Assembly (NCBI RefSeq): GCF_013334205.1
Contig: NZ_CP054424.1
Location: 1,818,001 to 1,882,000, forward strand
Reading direction: 5' to 3'
DNA from: Rhodoferax sp. BAB1
GTDB lineage: Bacteria > Pseudomonadota > Gammaproteobacteria > Burkholderiales > Burkholderiaceae_C
Length of the DNA stretch: 64,000 nucleotides
Position numbers and translations under genes: made by a program. The notes under the pieces were generated by a model, which saw nothing but the letters and a program-made list of their open reading frames with translations, was not told the origin of the DNA and did no database searches. Shown here one piece after another: positions 13,500 to 23,009 of the stretch. Numbering within the stretch: the first letter of the stretch is position 1; every line of letters starts with the position of its first letter.

Positions 13500-13670
13500 A
13501 TGCCCGCCCACGCCACCGGCTCTCCCCCCACCAAACGCCCCACCGCCAAGCGCAAGGCAAGTCAGGCAAATACCCTGCTCGCCCACTTCATGGCCGTGGA
13601 AGAGAACGGCAGCCTGGCCCAGCGCGTGCGCGAGGTGGTGGCCGGCAACCGCAGCAAGGCCGCCGCCTGA
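13500..13670 (+). CDS. Small basic protein next to AbiE
   Basis: This 56-residue ORF starts at ATG 13500 with a good AGGAGTG ribosome site. The N-terminal half is basic and disordered (PPTKRPTAKRKAS). The C-terminal half is a probable helix, NTLLAHFMAVEENGSLAQRVREVVAG. No family is recognised. It is preceded by two similar palindromes and converges on the abiEii stop 6 nt away. It could be a small DNA-binding partner of the palindromes or an orphan antitoxin-like peptide; both are guesses. Confidence 0.55.
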   Translation: MPAHATGSPPTKRPTAKRKASQANTLLAHFMAVEENGSLAQRVREVVAGNRSKAAA

Positions 13671-13676
13671 GTTGAC

Positions 13677-14552
13677 TCAGCCCTGCAACCTTGCCGCCTG
13701 CATCAAAGCGGGCTGTAGATGCTGGCGCAGCCGCACCAGTACCTCCGGCAAGGGCACCGGCGCAAGGTCGTTCTTCTTCAGGAAAGCCTGCCAGTGGGTC
13801 CGGCGCGTGTCGTCTTCCGCGAACGCATCCGTCAGGCCCAGCGGCAAGGTCGATGGAACCGGCATGCCGCGCCGCGCAAAGGTGGCGGCAATCGCCTGGG
13901 CCAGGGTTTCCAGTTCCAGGGACTCGCGTTCGAAGATGACCATCAAATCCAGATAGTCCTTCATGCGGGTATTGGCCATGCCCAACAGTGCAATGGCGTG
14001 CAACTTCTCGGCCACCACGGTATGGACCGGATAGGCACGCAGTTGCGGCGCCGGAAAGTCTGGCAACAGCACCGGATACTTCACCGCCACCGGGCCGGGA
14101 ACGACCGCATCGCCAAAACCGATGTCCACCTGAGCCCGCAAACGTGCGCCCGCGAGTTCGGCGTTGATGAAGATGCGGGCACCGGGGTAACCTGCCTCCT
14201 TGCGGATGTCCTCGGCGCTGACGCTGGACGGGTCAAACACCACACCGTCCGCCACCGCAATGGCCGCCACCTCGCGAAAGGTCTGGGCCACGGAAGGCAG
14301 ATCACTGGGGCCGTACCCCAGCAAATCGACATCGCGGGTCGGCCGGTGCGGCATGTCGTACCAGACCGTGAACAGCATCGCCCCCTTGAGCAGAAAGCGC
14401 TCGGCATGGTCCGACTGCCCCAGCCGGTACAGCAGGCGCTCCAGCGTGTAGCGCAGCAGCACACCATTGAAATCTGATCTCTCGGCCTTGGCCAGGTTGA
14501 GCAGCCGCGCCCGCACCGAAGCGGCCAGATTCTTGCCATTGCCCTCGCTCAT
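13677..14552 (-). CDS. abiEii: AbiEii/AbiGii-family nucleotidyltransferase toxin
   Basis: The 291-residue protein has the AbiEii layout: FLLKGAMLFTVW followed by RPTRDVDLLGYG (the nucleotide-transfer Gly and the Asp pair), then VAEKLHAIALLGM and the late motif TRMKDYLDLMVI with catalytic Lys/Asp. AbiEii-family toxins are nucleotidyltransferases that act on RNA substrates such as tRNA acceptor ends and arrest growth on phage attack. ATG 14552 overlaps the abiEi stop by 4 nt, so the pair is translationally coupled. All motifs appear intact, so the toxin is probably functional. Confidence 0.88.
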   Translation of the reverse strand: MSEGNGKNLAASVRARLLNLAKAERSDFNGVLLRYTLERLLYRLGQSDHAERFLLKGAMLFTVWYDMPHRPTRDVDLLGYGPSDLPSVAQTFREVAAIAVADGVVFDPSSVSAEDIRKEAGYPGARIFINAELAGARLRAQVDIGFGDAVVPGPVAVKYPVLLPDFPAPQLRAYPVHTVVAEKLHAIALLGMANTRMKDYLDLMVIFERESLELETLAQAIAATFARRGMPVPSTLPLGLTDAFAEDDTRRTHWQAFLKKNDLAPVPLPEVLVRLRQHLQPALMQAARLQG

Positions 14553-15178
14553 GCCAGGGCCTCCAGGTAGGGCCGCATCACCTGGGCCACACGGCAGATC
14601 CCCGCGTAGTGCCAGATCTCATCCACCGTGGCCTTGTTCTGCGCACGCGCCTCGCGCAGCGCCTCTAGCGCCACGTCCAGGCCGACCTTGTTGCGGTGCT
14701 TGAAGCAGTCGGCCACGGTCTTGGCCACGCCATACACACGCAGGGGCACCTGGTCACGCGTGTGCAGCTCGATCCCCTCGTCAAAGGCCTCGCCGGAAGA
14801 CTGCACCATCTTCAGCGGCGGATAGTCCAGCCGGGGCACATGGCTGCCGCGCGGCATGGCGATCCACACCTGCCGCGGCAGCTGGGTCGTCAGCCCGTGA
14901 AACTGCAGGGCCGTGAGCAGACAGAACACCGCCTGCGGCACCCGGGCCGCCACCGTGGCCAGCGTCTCATGCGCCGAAACCTGCGCGCCCGGCAGCCGGT
15001 ACAGCCCGCGCCCGACGCGCTCCAGCTGCCCGCTGGCCATCAGACGCGTCAGCACCACACGCGCCGCACCCACGTCCTCCAGATCACCGGGGCGCAGCAC
15101 ACCCCTGCGACGCGCCAGATCGAGAACGCGCTGCGGATGGGTATCGGCGTGAATGCTGCGGCCTGCCTTGGTTTTCAT
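14549..15178 (-). CDS. abiEi: AbiEi-family antitoxin, transcriptional repressor
   Basis: The 209-residue protein has an N-terminal winged-helix region (RVLDLARRRGVLRPGDL, RVVLTRLMASGQLERVGRGLY) and the C-terminal antitoxin domain (TALQFHGLTTQLPRQVWIA, DREVPLRVYGVAKTVADCF-type). Characterised AbiEi proteins neutralise AbiEii and repress their own promoter through inverted repeats. The frame is open to 15262, but ATG 15178 is preferred because the operator dyad at 15192-15239 would otherwise be coding. It is the promoter-proximal gene of the pair. Confidence 0.85.
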   Translation of the reverse strand: MKTKAGRSIHADTHPQRVLDLARRRGVLRPGDLEDVGAARVVLTRLMASGQLERVGRGLYRLPGAQVSAHETLATVAARVPQAVFCLLTALQFHGLTTQLPRQVWIAMPRGSHVPRLDYPPLKMVQSSGEAFDEGIELHTRDQVPLRVYGVAKTVADCFKHRNKVGLDVALEALREARAQNKATVDEIWHYAGICRVAQVMRPYLEALA

Positions 15179-15191
15179 GACAGGCGCAGTA

Positions 15192-15239
15192 TGTTCCATT
15201 TTTTCGTCAAATGCAAATTTTTGACGGGATATTGGAACA
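15192..15239. promoter_or_regulatory. Nested dyad operator of the abiE promoter
   Basis: Two inverted repeats share one centre at 15215.5: TGTTCCA...TGGAACA (15192-15198 and 15233-15239) and CGTCAAA...TTTGACG (15205-15211 and 15220-15226). On the minus strand TTGACG could serve as a -35 element with CATACT as a weak -10, so bound AbiEi would block the promoter. Confidence 0.65.
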
Positions 15240-17257: not shown

Positions 17258-17392
17258 TTATCTCCAAAGACTGAAAAAAAGCACCGACGATTCGGCTGGC
17301 ATGCGGCGGGCAATGCCGTCGGCTTGGCCCAAGTGCATAGGCTCGGCACTGTAGGGAGCGCGTCCGCGGACGCCGTCTAGGTAAAACTGCAT
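17258..17392 (-). pseudogene. Remnant of a second MobA-like start, now a 44-codon upstream ORF
   Basis: The ORF starts at ATG 17392 after a strong GAGGAG site and ends TAA 2 nt before the mobA start. It begins MQFYLDGVRGRAP, like a MobA N-terminus, then jumps to MHLGQADGIARRM, which resembles the MobA segment LGQADGIACR normally about 70 residues in. This looks like an internally deleted copy of a related gene. Because it ends right at the mobA ribosome site, it could now affect mobA translation by coupling. Confidence 0.5.
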
Positions 17393-17492
17393 GGCTGGGC
17401 TCCTCGTCTTGCTTAGATCTGGACGCCACAACTAGGGCGCCCTGCTCCGGGTCCGGCGCCAAGTTGGGGAAAGGTCAAGCCCCGGACTCAAC

Positions 17493-17514
17493 AATAATAA
17501 GCATACTTATTATT
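17493..17514. promoter_or_regulatory. MarR-type operator-like palindrome upstream of mobA
   Basis: AATAATAAG-CATA-CTTATTATT is a perfect palindrome with 9-bp arms, lying 101 bp upstream of the leader ORF. AT-rich palindromes of this size are typical of MarR-family sites, and mobA genes are known to be controlled by the MarR-type repressor MobR. No regulator gene is in the window, so it would be encoded elsewhere or lost. Confidence 0.5.
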
Positions 17515-17531
17515 AATCCGCTCGTCAACAC

Positions 17532-17708
17532 CAAACTGCCAAGGCGATTGCGATCGTTGATAAAACTGGATTCTCGGACGCATTCGAGCTGACCCCGACC
17601 ACCAATGCGCAGGCCTAAGGCTTTTTCGCCATGCTACTGGTGGTTGCGGACGAGCCTAAGCGCTTGCTGAGGCGCGTGGCCAACATCGCCATGGCCCCGT
17701 GCAAGTAA
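17532..17708 (+). pseudogene. Possible degraded coding fragment between mobA and the defence island
   Basis: One plus-strand frame reads AIAIVDKTGFSDAFELTPTT, is broken by a TAA at 17616, and continues in the same frame as GFFAMLLVVADEPKRLLRRV to a second stop at 17706. The protein-like composition on both sides of a single stop suggests a decayed C-terminus. The family is not recognised. The rest of the 549-bp gap contains only the leader ORF, the MarR-like palindrome and a short palindrome at 17773-17786. Confidence 0.25.
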
Positions 17709-17804
17709 GACTGGACTCAAAAACCGATACGCGCTGTACCAGCGCTTTCACTGTGTATTCTTAAAGATCGGGGATAGGCGCCTATCAGCGGATCCGTAGC
17801 ACAG

Positions 17805-18530
17805 CTACTTAGCACAAGAATCAACAATAGACTTAACGTCACTCGCCTCCATAACCTCAAGAAGCTTGGTCCCCCCCTTAAGGTTGAGGCTCTTCATGAC
17901 AGCCCTGAATCTGTCGCGCTCAAAGAGTGACTTATCCCCCAAATAAGATTCATGTAACTTCTGGATTACGGCTGAGAACACTGGGACAGTTTGCGACGTT
18001 GTTGGGCGCTCGATGATGTTGGCCCGAACGTCAGATTGATGCAAAAAGGCTGTCAGGGCACTCTTCAAATCGAGCTCTTCGACGCGGTCACACAAAGCAG
18101 CCATCCACCAGAGACGAGATGCAGCATTGTCGCGCTCGATCCCACGCGTTCCTTCAGCAAAGAAGTGCTTCTTAACGTGCACCAGTGCCTCCACATCGTC
18201 TTCAGGTATCGGCCAGCGCGACCTTGTATAGTGAAGAAGATGCACGTGAGACATGTAAACCCAAAGTCGAGGATCACGCGCCACGTATGGAGGCACATGC
18301 CCAAGCACCGTATAAATTGCCTCACAACAATCAACCTCTCTTAGGTCACCATCGACGCAATAAACATCCTTAAGAGCATCCGGTTCAAAATTTGTATCGA
18401 TTTCAAAGTAGTTGGCTGGATCATTCGTTAAAAAATCGAAGTCGCCAGAACGGTAACGCCCAAGGTTCGATTCAATTTCTTTTGTCAGAAAATCTACAGT
18501 CTTTGCTCGAAGCAAGCGCATCTTCTGCAT
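17805..18530 (-). CDS. DUF6339 family protein of the methyltransferase/GHKL island
   Basis: The 241-residue protein matches DUF6339 by pattern: IEIDTNFEPDALKD-like acidic start, YTVLGHVPPYVARDPRLWVYMSHVHLLHYTRSRWP, and ERDNAASRLWWMAALCDRV. The domain is mostly helical, has no recognisable catalytic motif, and has no membrane segment. Its function is unknown; homologues tend to lie in restriction-modification-like clusters, as remembered. It starts directly after the stop of the upstream gene (TAAATG) and is the last gene of the operon. Base composition is clearly more AT-rich than the flanking genes. Confidence 0.8.
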   Translation of the reverse strand: MQKMRLLRAKTVDFLTKEIESNLGRYRSGDFDFLTNDPANYFEIDTNFEPDALKDVYCVDGDLREVDCCEAIYTVLGHVPPYVARDPRLWVYMSHVHLLHYTRSRWPIPEDDVEALVHVKKHFFAEGTRGIERDNAASRLWWMAALCDRVEELDLKSALTAFLHQSDVRANIIERPTTSQTVPVFSAVIQKLHESYLGDKSLFERDRFRAVMKSLNLKGGTKLLEVMEASDVKSIVDSCAK

Positions 18531-19361
18531 TTACTGCTCCCCTTTAAAAACGTACGTTTGAAGCAGTGTCATAGGGTATTTCATTAAACGCTGGGCCAAG
18601 ATATATGGCTCGGTTGCATTCAGATCCCACCCGGCGTTATGGAGTTGCCCACGCAGAACAGCTGACCATCTCTTGTCCTCGTAATCTGACGAGCTCTCTT
18701 TCAACTTCTGCAAAGCCTGGGTTACAGCGGCTGCGTAAATCGAATTCAAAAGAATAACTTGGTTGTTCTTGCTGTTTCGGGCACTATCAACGGCATCTTT
18801 CATCTGGCCGCTAACTTCGATCTGTATGTGATTCTCCTCAAACCCGACGCGCCACTCTCCCCCACTGAGTGCGTCGTTCTTAACGAGATCAAAAATTGAA
18901 GTGACCGGTTTGAATAGATCTCGATCTATGAAGAAAGACTGCGGCTCATCTTGGGCGAGAACATCGCCCGGGGAAAAATCAAATTCCGTCTTGCCAAATT
19001 CCGGGTTGATATCGGAGGACTTGAATCCGCTAATTGCAACAGTCGCAACGATATAGGTATCAACCTTGACCTCCCCCCTCAAAACTCCTGCCCCCAACTC
19101 TTGAGAGACATGGGGTTCAGCAGAGGAAATGACAGCTCTTAAATACGTATCGCGACACGAAACAATCGCCACGTACTTCGCGCGGCCGGCGACAACCTCA
19201 TTGATCAGCTCATCTGAGGACGTGGCAAAAGACACTTCGACAGTGACACTCTCTTTTTCGATCACAAATTCGACTGTCGTCTGAAACTCGACATCGATGT
19301 AATCATTGCAATGTGGACGAAGCACCGGATAGGGGAAGGCCTTATTTCGATCAAACTTCAT
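18531..19361 (-). CDS. Unrecognised protein of the methyltransferase/GHKL island
   Basis: The 276-residue protein starts MKFDRNKAFPYPVLRPHCND; ATG 19361 lies inside the end of the ATPase gene (11-nt overlap), so translation is coupled. The N-terminal half is beta-rich (VEFQTTVEFVIEKESVTVEVSF, VKVDTYIVATVAISGF), and the C-terminal half is helical with NQVILLNSIYAAAVTQALQKL. No PD-(D/E)XK, HNH or GIY-YIG nuclease motif is evident, and no family is recognised. Its conserved place between the GHKL ATPase and DUF6339 suggests a structural or DNA-recognition subunit, which is inference only. Confidence 0.75.
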   Translation of the reverse strand: MKFDRNKAFPYPVLRPHCNDYIDVEFQTTVEFVIEKESVTVEVSFATSSDELINEVVAGRAKYVAIVSCRDTYLRAVISSAEPHVSQELGAGVLRGEVKVDTYIVATVAISGFKSSDINPEFGKTEFDFSPGDVLAQDEPQSFFIDRDLFKPVTSIFDLVKNDALSGGEWRVGFEENHIQIEVSGQMKDAVDSARNSKNNQVILLNSIYAAAVTQALQKLKESSSDYEDKRWSAVLRGQLHNAGWDLNATEPYILAQRLMKYPMTLLQTYVFKGEQ

Positions 19362-21264
19362 GAGCAAGCACCTTGATAGCTCCATTGAACGCTTCGGAGA
19401 GCGTGACCTCAAAGTCAATTCGCTCCTTCGGCTTGACGTCAATTGTTATCTTTCCATCCGCGACCTCTCCCAGACTGGAGGTCTTTACTGCAATGTGATA
19501 GTCGCTATCCGCGCCAACTTCAAGCAATGCCACGGATATCTTGCCCCTCGCCATGGGAGTCAAGAAAATCCGTCTCGTTGTTGGCGACTTCACAATCGCA
19601 CGCACATTGTCGAATGCCGCGATCGGAGATGGCTTGCGAGCATCATCCGCACCACCAACGCCACCGGCCCCAGCGCCTTTGCCGCCAGAACCATCTCCTC
19701 CTCCACCCCCATCATTACCCCCGCCGCCTTCAGCCTCTTCACCATCGTTACCAATCGCTGACTCGGCCTCTTCTCCTTGGATGGCCTCTTTTTTTGGAAC
19801 AATTCGTTTTGCCCGAATAATGATCTTGCCAGACGGATCTACTTCTGCTGTGCCCTTGCCTCCACCTTCGCCCTCCTCGTCAGCGAAGTACTCCTTTAAC
19901 TCATCAAGCGATGTTGTCTCCGTAACGGGATTTTTCGCATGGCGTTTCAGCATATTTCGAATCCATGCTGCGAGCTTGTTCAGCGCCATGCCACCTTTGT
20001 TTTGCTCGTCCTTTGTCGCCAATCTCTCTGGCTCGAAATCGTCATGACGTGGCGGCTCCATAGACCGCAACAATTCAATTCCCTTTTTATTCTTGCACTC
20101 GACAACTGCAATGAATTCCTTGAAGTCCGAGAAATTTTTCAACCCTGGAAGCGCCAATGAATCTGAAATGAACATTCCGTTGCGCAACATACAGACCTTC
20201 TTCGGCAGGCCTTCTCGCAACAGAATGCGTATCTGACATAGGCCAAGATGGAGAACTTCGCTTTCCTCAACGATCACTTCGGGATTGTCCTGGAGCGCCT
20301 CAAGGTAATAGCCACAGTTGTCAAACTGCTCAGGCTCATTTTTGTGCTTTTCGACAGCCTCCCGAATCGTCTTGTTCCTCAGGAAAGCACTAATAGTCGT
20401 CTTGTCTAACGAGTACCGCCCGTCAATGTTGACCTCTAGCTTTCCTTCATGGATCGCTCCGAAGAAATTCTCAGCAACTGAAGTAGCCAGATTTTCCCTC
20501 CATCCAGCGACGTTATCGAAGCCCAAAATGGATAGCTGTGTCCCTTTGCTCTTCTTTAGCGCGGCCTCAGTTCGTGCGCGCTGCAGCCAAGCAGGCATCT
20601 CTTTACTCACACCTTCAACTGGCTGGCACTTTTCTGTGTTCCCCCAAAAACCTGTTCCTTGACGACGTTTTTTTCCATCGTCATGAGACATAAGAATAGA
20701 CTTACCCTGCGTTAGCTGACGGTAAGCCCCCGACGTCTCCTCATACACAGTTGAGACGAATACAGTTCTCAGCTTAGAAACAGAATAAGGTGCAAATTTT
20801 CCAATGCCGAATGAACCGGTAGCTGTTGCACTTTCTTTTTTGCTCTGTCCTTTGGCCTTCATGAAGGCGTAATACGGTGTTCCATTTTCACAAGGACCAC
20901 GCATTCCTCGGGTATTGAAATCTGAGATTTCAAGCACATAAATTTTTGACTTGGCTAGTTCTTCGTGCGCACCCTGGAAGAACTGCTGTGCTTTCGAGCT
21001 TTCTTTAGACGCAGCGTCCTTGCACAGTTTGATAGTCTTCTTAAGCTGTTCGAAATCCGGAATGCTTTTCACTTCTGCATATGAAAGCTTCATCTCAACT
21101 CGAACAGTCCCATCGTCAGCCGAATCCAATGAGTTCTGATTAACTTCACGAGCCAAATGGCGCACTGGGTTACCTGCGAAATGTTCAATTCCAGGTTCGT
21201 TGAATCCATCCCATTGATCGGACTCATCTATCGGATGACTCCATCCAAGTTTCTTTGTCGTCAT
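19351..21264 (-). CDS. GHKL (HATPase_c) ATPase of a restriction-like island
   Basis: The 637-residue protein has all GHKL ATP-binding elements: N-box LAREVNQNSLDSAD (residues 37-50), G1 box DFNTRG (115-120) and G2 box GSFGIGK (150-156). This is the Bergerat fold of MutL, Hsp90, gyrase and MORC proteins, which act as ATP-gated clamps. A transducer-like middle part follows. An acidic linker and a glycine-rich stretch (about 515-541) then lead to a beta-rich C-terminal domain of about 95 residues. ATG 21264 overlaps the methyltransferase stop by 4 nt. It likely senses or handles DNA with the methyltransferase; the partner nuclease is not obvious. Confidence 0.85.
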   Translation of the reverse strand: MTTKKLGWSHPIDESDQWDGFNEPGIEHFAGNPVRHLAREVNQNSLDSADDGTVRVEMKLSYAEVKSIPDFEQLKKTIKLCKDAASKESSKAQQFFQGAHEELAKSKIYVLEISDFNTRGMRGPCENGTPYYAFMKAKGQSKKESATATGSFGIGKFAPYSVSKLRTVFVSTVYEETSGAYRQLTQGKSILMSHDDGKKRRQGTGFWGNTEKCQPVEGVSKEMPAWLQRARTEAALKKSKGTQLSILGFDNVAGWRENLATSVAENFFGAIHEGKLEVNIDGRYSLDKTTISAFLRNKTIREAVEKHKNEPEQFDNCGYYLEALQDNPEVIVEESEVLHLGLCQIRILLREGLPKKVCMLRNGMFISDSLALPGLKNFSDFKEFIAVVECKNKKGIELLRSMEPPRHDDFEPERLATKDEQNKGGMALNKLAAWIRNMLKRHAKNPVTETTSLDELKEYFADEEGEGGGKGTAEVDPSGKIIIRAKRIVPKKEAIQGEEAESAIGNDGEEAEGGGGNDGGGGGDGSGGKGAGAGGVGGADDARKPSPIAAFDNVRAIVKSPTTRRIFLTPMARGKISVALLEVGADSDYHIAVKTSSLGEVADGKITIDVKPKERIDFEVTLSEAFNGAIKVLAHEV

Positions 21265-22274
21265 ATCCTCTCCTTTTCGATTTTTTCTTTAACCGCGTTT
21301 GCGAGCAACCTTGATATAAGCGGAACGACAGAATTTCCAACTTGCATATATCGCTTGGCGCGAGGGACCTCATCCGGAAACTGGAACAGTTGCGGGTAAC
21401 CTTGGAGGTTCAAACACTCCCTCTCGGTTAGCTTTCGTAACCCCTTTTTATCAAAAATGAAGGGCACATTGTGCCCACCCAAACCCATATTTGCCGTCAA
21501 TGTTGGGCACACGCCAGGCTCTTTGACACGAACCAAGAATTTTCTAAGCTGATAGATGCAATAAGGATCTTCCAGCTTGTTCGAAATCATTTTGTGATAA
21601 CGGTTTTCCTCGTCTAGGTAATAGCTCGCATCCTCGACCTTGCCCTCGAAATCAATATAGTCTTCAAGCCTTTTCGGCTCGGTTGACCTAGACAGCATGA
21701 GATCAATATTTCCATTTTTGAATGCTTTGGTTGAGAATGCGACCATGAATAGCCGATTTCTCTTTTGTGGCAAGGCTGTCAGGGCGTATGGATCCATTTC
21801 GAAGCAATTGGCCTCTCTGAACCAGTAGCCAGCCTTCTTTATTTCACGCGCAAGCTCAACAAACCAAGACCCGCCCTCACCTACCCGGATATGAGGTGAG
21901 TTCTCTAGAACAAGAACTGATGGCCGGTTATCGCCAAACTCTTTTAGCAAACGAATAATCTCATAAAAGAGCTGTCCTCTTGGGTCGTCAAATCCGCGCC
22001 GCTCTCCTGCAGCAGAGAAGCTCTGGCATGGAAATCCTGCGTGCAAGATATCGACAGGCTCGAGGCCGCTACCGACTACGCTAACCTGGCGAATATCCGC
22101 AGGCGCCCCGTCGGATGAAATCATGCGTACATCGTGCAGATTCCGCTGATATGTTGCTACGGCGGCGGAGTCATTTTCTATCGCCCATGCAGTTTTAATG
22201 CCTACGCTCTCGAAGCCGAGACAGAAGCCCCCAATTCCTGCGAATAGGGCCCCCGCCTTTAGTTGCTGTGTCAT
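21261..22274 (-). CDS. C5 DNA cytosine methyltransferase
   Basis: The 337-residue enzyme has the conserved C5-MTase motifs in order: I FAGIGGFCLGFE, IV GFPCQSFSAAG with the catalytic Cys, VI LENSPH (Glu kept; Ser replaces the usual Val), VIII QKRNRLFMVA, IX near RKLTERECLNLQGYP and X QVGNSVVP. It transfers methyl groups to cytosine C5 in a specific duplex sequence; the short target-recognition region (about 190-255) does not reveal the site. No Vsr endonuclease or classical restriction enzyme follows. The next gene is the GHKL ATPase, with an ATGA overlap. Confidence 0.93.
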   Translation of the reverse strand: MTQQLKAGALFAGIGGFCLGFESVGIKTAWAIENDSAAVATYQRNLHDVRMISSDGAPADIRQVSVVGSGLEPVDILHAGFPCQSFSAAGERRGFDDPRGQLFYEIIRLLKEFGDNRPSVLVLENSPHIRVGEGGSWFVELAREIKKAGYWFREANCFEMDPYALTALPQKRNRLFMVAFSTKAFKNGNIDLMLSRSTEPKRLEDYIDFEGKVEDASYYLDEENRYHKMISNKLEDPYCIYQLRKFLVRVKEPGVCPTLTANMGLGGHNVPFIFDKKGLRKLTERECLNLQGYPQLFQFPDEVPRAKRYMQVGNSVVPLISRLLANAVKEKIEKERI

Positions 22275-22290
22275 TGATTCGAATACCGGT

Positions 22291-22515
22291 CTATAGCTTG
22301 AATGCCTGCTGTCGATCTTGATCGTGCGTTAGGAAGCTTTGCTTCAGCCCATCCACTTCCTGTTGCATAACTTTCACAATCTTTTTGGCCTGCTCATCCG
22401 TGTACTCATAGTTCTGTCGATTCGCCAGATTCGCGATCAAGCGGATATCCTTGATCGCTCGATTGACGCGTCGATTAGCTAATTCCACGAACTTGGCTGT
22501 CTTGTCTCTATTCAC
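22291..22515 (-). CDS. Small helical first gene of the island
   Basis: This 74-residue ORF uses GTG 22515 with a strong AGGAGAG site. It is predicted to be helical and charged: FVELANRRVNRAIKDIRLIANLANRQNYEYTDEQAKKI. It lies 16 nt before the methyltransferase start, so it should be the promoter-proximal gene of the operon. Its size and position match a control or accessory protein, but no HTH is convincing. No family is recognised. Confidence 0.7.
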   Translation of the reverse strand: MNRDKTAKFVELANRRVNRAIKDIRLIANLANRQNYEYTDEQAKKIVKVMQQEVDGLKQSFLTHDQDRQQAFKL

Positions 22516-22932
22516 AAGTCTCTCCTAGGCTTGGCCAATCTAGCCACCATAGCAGGCAAGGGATCAACTACATTTACGAAGCTCCACATCACCTAAATCA
22601 CTACATTTTTTATTTGTAGCTATAGATTTTTGTTTTGTAGCAATCTTAATCGAGCTCACCACGAATCAGCAACGTATAAATTATTTCTCCGAAGATCGAA
22701 GTCAGCGACCAACGAAGACAGCGTTGTACTTGCATCCGAGGATGCATTTATTTTGTGTCGATGGCACTTTCGTATCGGCGAGTCAATGTTGACTAGTTGA
22801 CCTCAGCTGTCGCCCTTGAACCAAAGACGCTGGGACACAGCCATCGCCTGAGTAGCGCGTACAGCGTCTTTGCAAATGGGGCCTAGAAAGACGAAAGGGC
22901 TAGTAGCCGCAAAGCTACTAGCCCCTGTGAAT
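22516..22932. promoter_or_regulatory. AT-rich promoter region of the island with repeated TTTGTAGC motifs
   Basis: No gene is seen in these 417 bp. TTTGTAGC occurs at 22613-22620 and 22634-22641, exactly 21 bp apart. The first copy also forms an inverted repeat CTACA-N9-TGTAG (22601-22619). Repeats two helical turns apart upstream of a methyltransferase operon are typical of control-protein binding sites. The rest is AT-rich spacer up to the tRNA-Pro terminator. Confidence 0.5.
22897..22924 (-). terminator. Terminator of tRNA-Pro
   Basis: An 11-bp perfect stem, GGGCTAGTAGC and GCTACTAGCCC, with a 6-nt loop lies 9 nt beyond the CCA end. It is followed on the minus strand by TTTCGTCTTTC. Confidence 0.75.
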
Positions 22933-23009
22933 TGGTCGGTGTGAAAGGATTCGAACCTTCGACCCCTTGCACCCCATGCAAGTGCGCTACCAGGCTGCGC
23001 CACACACCG
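22933..23009 (-). tRNA. tRNA-Pro (anticodon GGG)
   Basis: The minus strand folds as a cloverleaf. Acceptor CGGTGTG pairs with CACACCG, the D-arm is GCGC...GCGC, the anticodon stem CTTGC/GCAAG encloses ATGGGGT (anticodon GGG), and the T-arm is GGTTCGAATCC-like. CCA is encoded at 22935-22933. Its 3' end faces the AT-rich island, the usual side used by tRNA-targeting integrases, though none is present here. Confidence 0.96.

Follow-up and report, generated by a model that had tools for sequence, protein, structure and literature searches.

A compact operon in the genome of Rhodoferax sp. BAB1 places a C5 cytosine methyltransferase (MTase) gene directly upstream of genes for a GHKL ATPase and two partner proteins, and we tentatively read it as a paraMORC2-based restriction module that is coupled to DNA modification, engages DNA in an ATP-driven manner, has no cutter of its own and is exchanged between genomes as an anti-phage cassette. 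All coordinates are positions in the window, which is the whole 64-kb stretch of DNA analysed. Here we name the cassette genes S (a small helical protein), MT (the MTase), A (the ATPase), B and C (a DUF6339 protein). Two parts of the reading, the coupling of A-B-C to modification genes and the mobility of the cassette, are well supported. The first-pass annotation, made on the window only, had pointed to the operon; beyond it, we find that A-B-C is portable and occurs with EcoRII-, AlwI- and Sau3AI-type, type I/IIG and SspD/SspA-like partners, and that the site of the cassette, at tRNA-Pro, is a hotspot of exchange.

Altogether 41 loci were tabulated, the window included. They were collected from close homologues, from searches of the class, the phylum and the order, and from plasmids (three of the six plasmid records were included, the remaining three being of the same genera). 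The loci belong to 39 genomes or records; L031 and L038 share a genome, as do L036 and L037. They were sought with B or C and never with the MTase. C follows B in all 41 loci and A precedes B in 39 of them, the other two beginning at a contig edge. This gene order exceeds chance, and the co-occurrence of the genes in other genomes, the absence of which would have spoken against the first-pass annotation, is strong. The A/B overlap measures 11, 4 or 14 nt in the 21 loci checked, while ORF (open reading frame) coordinates separate the two genes by 2 nt in L035 and by 5 nt in L069. The prevalence is low: 12/385, 4/398 and 2/300 genomes (the centre genome counted in each) and, in a further search, 7/369, two of the seven being DnaN genes. 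Both MT and A in L015, and A alone in L065, are split over frames, which points to decayed copies or sequencing errors. At L032:530-4421, HD-CE, ORC-CDC6-like and CARF6 proteins are encoded directly downstream of A-B-C, an apparent multi-gene immune set.

A modification gene is present within 9 kb of A-B-C in 35 of the 41 loci: a C5 MTase in 28, a type I/IIG set in one and an SspD-like gene in six. In L002, L003, L013, L014 and L074, where no partner was found, a contig end lies no more than 1.6 kb upstream of B. The coupling is supported by the fact that partners turn up in 35/41 loci though these were sought without the MTase, and by the rarity of C5 MTase genes, MT being the single PF00145 match in its own 3.82-Mb genome. 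MT has intact motifs (1.1e-25 against M.HhaI), and its distances among 14 window-clade loci correlate with those of A, B and C (r 0.94, 0.92 and 0.93; 0/2000 permutations reached each r). The region around residues 241-280 is among the most conserved of MT in 13 loci, which suggests a fixed target. The adenine-methylation partner comes from a single locus, the Ligilactobacillus plasmid L041, with HsdM/HsdS-like genes and a IIG enzyme (annotation, PADLOC).

In the window and most of its clade the C5 MTase stands alone, and elsewhere it is found together with Vsr or with an EcoRII-, AlwI- or Sau3AI-type restriction endonuclease (REase). Vsr-like genes are near 14/41 loci (four Pfam-confirmed). 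EcoRII-type enzymes were found in L030 and L031 (Pfam), in L066 (phmmer) and, at 8.5 kb, in L034, an AlwI-type enzyme in L039 and a Sau3AI-type enzyme in L040 (both by annotation); in all, the REase queries match 7/41 loci. The location of A-B-C inside or beside restriction enzymes in these seven loci also suits a guard, which would sense infection or interference with the partner modification or restriction-modification (R-M) system and stop growth by abortive infection. Fusions of paraMORC (GHKL) and HEPN domains in R-M loci have been proposed to act like PrrC and RloC, according to the available text of PMC3710099. The cassette of the window, however, offers such a guard no recognised REase, and a toxin domain was not recognised in A, B or C with Pfam and PADLOC; a guard is in our view decidedly unlikely.

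The six loci with SspD-like genes extend the range of partners. In L035, L072 and L073 A-B-C is accompanied by genes for an SspD-like protein, an SspA/DndA-like cysteine desulfurase and a GmrSD_N (DUF262) protein, and in L036, L037 and L071 by an SspD-like gene only. The values in L035 are 1.1e-9 for SspD, approximately 1e-150 for SspA, 2.2e-19 for GmrSD_N and 0.00067 for PAPS_reduct (below the Pfam cut-off). No SspB or SspC was seen in L035, L072 and L073, although no profile search was aimed at them. Judged by the gene families, these three loci possibly represent a GHKL-based sulfur-modification defence. A, B and C are homologous across the Ssp and window clades (hhalign 100%, E 1e-46 over 405 columns for A; 99.6%, E 2e-24 for B; 95.9%, E 6e-9 for C). 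An unrooted FastTree tree built on 32 concatenated loci unites the five Ssp rows in a single clade (support 1.000), and the change to SspD-type partners may therefore have happened once. The change of partner type is seen at the level of genes, and the putative sulfur chemistry is what these gene families would predict.

SspD-like genes with A-B-C in six loci, joined by SspA-like genes in three, are also compatible with a unit that serves modification, providing ATP-driven scanning or loading for the MTase or for SspD/SspA-like enzymes, with an effect on phages that is secondary or absent. A comparable arrangement is the DndD-DndE core, a 'DNA-scanning apparatus' reported with cytosine methylases replacing the phosphorothioate (PT) enzymes (available text of PMC10853773). 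On the other hand, R-M loci with an MTase-REase pair of their own need no such helper, and the cassette swaps place with restriction cassettes. To our knowledge M.HhaI and other C5 MTases work without an ATPase, which we also count against this role, and we hold it to be very unlikely.

Residues of catalytic type are kept throughout in A, but in neither B nor C. The conservation table and the tree omit L002, L003, L013, L014, L015, L036, L038 and L074, which are cut by contig ends or broken; of L065 only the A protein, which is split, was omitted, giving n=32 for A and n=33 for B and C. Identical in 32/32 A proteins are R39, E40, Q43, D47, D115, G120, G139, G150, G153, G155, R361, M364, E403 and H407. 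R39, E40, Q43 and D47, with N44 in 31/32, make up the GHKL N box, and G150, G153 and G155 the G2 box (GxxGxG). The N, G1 and G2 boxes had all been described as intact in the first-pass annotation; this holds for the N and G2 boxes but not for G1, which is derived in the window clade. It reads DFNTRG in the window, D115 and G120 being the residues kept in 32/32, and the canonical DNGxG is present only in the five rows of the Ssp clade, the sister clade. The direct profile comparison of window-clade A is weak, both with MutL (hhalign 7.6%, E 0.0046) and with HtpG (E 0.33; control 0.84), and so was another, with E 0.015 and 0.032, respectively, and a control of 0.72, where the alignment nevertheless lay on the right motifs. 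Ssp-clade A gives a better match to MutL, at 82.7% and E 9.5e-6 over 26 columns (control 0.13), and matches HtpG at 6.0% and E 0.0062, the latter no better than the window-clade route. The A protein of L037, from the sister clade, matches HATPase_c at 0.0013, below the Pfam cut-off.

Further assignment is possible within the MORC-related families. The paraMORC2 motif published in the available text of Iyer et al. (2008; PMC2292703) is a conserved ExxxH located C-terminally in the S5 domain, and E403 and H407 correspond to it in 32/32 A proteins. The S5 motif of MORC proper, GhXhhpXXRhl, was found in 0/32. Since ExxxH is kept and the MORC-specific motif is absent, A is a probable paraMORC2.

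The AlphaFold2 model of B (predicted local distance difference test, pLDDT, 79; predicted template modelling score, pTM, 0.59) comprises a beta-sandwich and a helical region, and its structure searches returned no nuclease among the 50 matches listed of each. The PDC-M33B profile, which B matches, also matches DnaN sliding clamps in L021 and L023 at positions 80-190 (E 1.9e-5 and 8.6e-4), which may be due to chance or may reflect a distant relationship between B and clamp folds. C has a confident helical model (pLDDT 92, pTM 0.87), for which Foldseek gave no PDB or viral-model match at E 0.001 or better, and a profile search in PDB gave no credible match (best E 0.36). No set of acidic, His or Lys residues is kept across the 33 loci in either protein. 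The first-pass suggestion of a new nuclease activity in either B or C is thus not supported in that form, there being no nuclease among the structure matches listed and no residue set conserved throughout. S was found in 17/41 loci, the window included; its alignment (A7) has 10 rows and 14 invariant positions, and its profile matches 2/100 genomes of the order, both of them A-B-C carriers.

C, or B, could still be an unrecognised nuclease or RNase, A-B-C then being either an ordinary ATP-dependent restriction enzyme that cuts DNA lacking methylation or an RNase that A sets off. The model of C is confident while its function is unassigned, and the 28 non-Ssp loci mostly conserve R88 (24/28), H95 (27), R139 (27), D167 (26) and E174 (25). 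R88-x6-H95 lies in a helix and resembles the HEPN RNase motif, which we count in favour of such an activity. This set is, however, not conserved in the Ssp clade and incomplete in L039-L041, and the searches with C found no structural or profile relative at the thresholds given above. We consider a nuclease hidden in C or B unlikely.

ATP-dependent dimerisation and action on DNA are established properties of GHKL ATPases, MutL and MORC among them. In the restriction reading that we prefer, MT would mark the host DNA, and A would form a complex with B, with C as a helical scaffold or reader, and with S. The complex would engage DNA in an ATP-driven, clamp-like manner, as MutL and MORC ATPases do, and would exclude DNA without the host mark by holding it, silencing it or recruiting host factors, that is, not through a nuclease of its own. 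All this presumes that the modification genes act as their families do, and the polarity and the effector are those we infer. Coupling to modification, also in loci without a recognised REase, is what a module harming unmarked DNA would need, which argues for restriction; the ATPase of A is, by its residues, the sole activity conserved throughout A-B-C, and ATP-driven engagement is favoured for that reason. Together, the coupling and the conservation of the ATPase alone place this reading above, in descending order, a hidden nuclease, a guard and a modification helper. DNA looping has been proposed as the role of paraMORC proteins in R-M systems (available text of PMC2292703).

Several observations weigh against a restriction module without a cutter. 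L070 has good flanks and no recognised modification gene, and is a true exception (A-B-C lies at L070:7403-11261, in a 1.4-Mb genome, with flanks of 7.4 kb upstream and 2.8 kb downstream covered). The REase in 7/41 loci explains the MTase there without any need for A-B-C. Few REase queries were used and a nuclease in the relatives may have been missed. An HNH-type protein (5.6e-16) is encoded approximately 2 kb downstream of C in L073, and nucleases can thus occur close by. In most non-Ssp loci H95, D167 and E174 of C are conserved, together with several Arg residues. Finally, the GHKL assignment of window-clade A is drawn from motifs and from the sister clade, the direct comparison being weak.

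As the mark is exchangeable, A-B-C would be the generic part. A bolder form of the restriction reading, which we find doubtful, is that A-B-C is a general nuclease-free restriction engine that plugs into 5-methylcytosine, adenine-methylation and phosphorothioate-type marks and blocks unmarked DNA by ATP-driven entrapment. If true, it would be a bacterial parallel to silencing by the eukaryotic MORCs. Restriction is usually viewed as marking plus cutting, and a conserved unit with varied marking enzymes and no recognisable cutter would open 'restriction without cleavage' to testing in an operon of 4.7 kb. It also offers a small natural setting in which to ask how DNA modification is read by GHKL ATPases, which is an open question for eukaryotic MORCs as well. 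In addition to that, the paraMORC2 ATPases, predicted in 2008 (available text of PMC2292703), gain two defined partners, B and the DUF6339 protein.

A, B and C match the three PADLOC models PDC-M33A, PDC-M33B and PDC-M33C (Table 1), and B can therefore not be called unrecognised, as it had been. The models comprise three proteins, whereas the cassette adds S and a C5 MTase, and partners vary among the relatives. PDC names denote unpublished candidates, mostly without validation (available text of PMC11811056 and PMC12988326). They were found by a guilt-by-embedding approach (available text of PMC12988326), and embedding in other systems is therefore not by itself news. No paper naming DUF6339 or PDC-M33 was found in our literature search, the scope of which excluded preprints and most subscription journals, nor was a characterised named system with the same gene order. 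The search also gave, among the matches listed, no GHKL system with phosphorothioate/SspD partners.

The paraMORC2 R-M systems resemble the cassette in the GHKL motifs, ExxxH and the C5 MTase and Vsr neighbours, but the five proteins of the window lack a recognised SFII helicase or RE-fold NRE; B, C and SspD/SspA are absent from the available account of those systems (PMC2292703). A GHKL protein, an upstream C5 MTase and a nearby Vsr are likewise shared with the paraMORC-type HEF_HK/Response_reg_2 system, to which PF19192 belongs (available text of PMC8011034). Neither PF19192 nor PF19191 appeared among the Pfam matches of the five proteins, which were listed to E 1. PF19191 is presumably also a domain accession of that system. 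DndD-DndE/CxC likewise combines one ATPase core with PT enzymes or cytosine methylases, but its ATPase is ABC-type and A is GHKL; the terms GHKL, MORC and MutL are absent from the available text (PMC10853773). VcSduA, a Shedu protein with GHKL (paraMORC3), has the GHKL ATPase in anti-phage defence in common with the cassette and differs in its fused nuclease domain, none being recognised in the cassette (available text of PMC12137116). The C-terminal DUF4263 nuclease domain of Shedu/paraMORC3 had no Pfam match in A. A cognate restriction endonuclease beside the MTase, as in type II R-M systems, was not recognised either, since none of the five proteins matches a nuclease (other mechanically called ORFs of the cassette were not searched). 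In general, paraMORC-linked R-M is already known, and the A-B-C composition with partner exchange appears to be a new version of it.

The five packed minus-strand ORFs, in the order S-MT-A-B-C, were found at 17805-22515, where the first-pass annotation had placed them (Table 1). S and MT are separated by a 16-nt gap, MT and A overlap by 4 nt, and B and C adjoin at 0 nt. The 276-aa B starts at an internal ATG of a mechanically called ORF of 303 aa. No Pfam match of A, B or S reaches the cut-off. With Pfam and PADLOC the five proteins have no helicase, Vsr or nuclease match, in agreement with the restriction-like GHKL/MTase locus without these enzymes that had been described; as for Vsr, this applies to the five genes of the window and not to the relatives.

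Table 1. Features of the cassette and its boundary in the window.
Feature	Position	Strand	Support
S, small helical protein, 74 aa, GTG start, operon gene 1	22291..22515	-	ORF
MT, C5 cytosine DNA methyltransferase, HhaI-like, motifs intact	21261..22274	-	Pfam PF00145 (DNA_methylase) 2e-52
A, GHKL ATPase, 637 aa, probable paraMORC2, Gly-rich linker and C-terminal extension	19351..21264	-	PADLOC PDC-M33A 6.6e-106
B, 276 aa, PDC-M33B, beta-sandwich N-terminal part, helical C-terminal part	18531..19361	-	PADLOC 3.5e-46
C, DUF6339 protein, 241 aa, PDC-M33C	17805..18530	-	Pfam PF19866 (DUF6339) 1.5e-37; PADLOC 2.6e-30
A/B overlap, 11 nt	19351..19361	-	ORF coordinates
Whole inserted cassette, phenol hydroxylase gene 5' end to tRNA-Pro 3' end	17312..22930	.	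DNA homology limits; GC drop
tRNA-Pro(GGG), 3' end = cassette boundary	22933..23009	-	

The operon is carried by a mobile piece of DNA. In the 5.6-kb cassette the GC (guanine plus cytosine) content is 47-52%, compared to approximately 65% around it, and no genes besides S, MT, A, B and C were recognised there, the other mechanically called ORFs inside not having been searched. If they work alone, the effector is consequently among them or in the host. On the tRNA side 19 same-genus loci were compared, of which four do not align at the tRNA. In 14 of the other 15, DNA homology stops where tRNA-Pro has its 3' end, at 22930-22933; in L082 it stops at 22885. Homology to the same-genus loci L096 and L097 reaches up to 17311, where the phenol hydroxylase gene has its 5' end, and restarts at 22931; because it breaks at both ends, the sequence between is an inserted piece.

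The place between these two flanks is taken in L096 by PDC-S41 together with a NERD-UvrD protein, and in L097 by a type I set of methyltransferase, specificity and restriction genes. In L098 a DrmA-like protein adjoins the tRNA, and the hydroxylase is not within its 12 kb. In L085, L086 and L087 the tRNA is followed after approximately 0.4 kb by sequence matching the window at 12.5 kb, which implies that these loci lack both the hydroxylase and the cassette at this place. With other defence genes beside tRNA-Pro in three congeners, the site appears to be a defence hotspot, and the unit accordingly looks like one of several interchangeable defence cassettes. The exchange at the same place with type I R-M and with PDC-S41 plus NERD-UvrD is counted for the restriction reading. 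Elsewhere in the window, an AbiEi/AbiEii toxin-antitoxin pair is inserted at 13665-15231, the flanks of which are approximately 9 nt apart in the same-genus L096.

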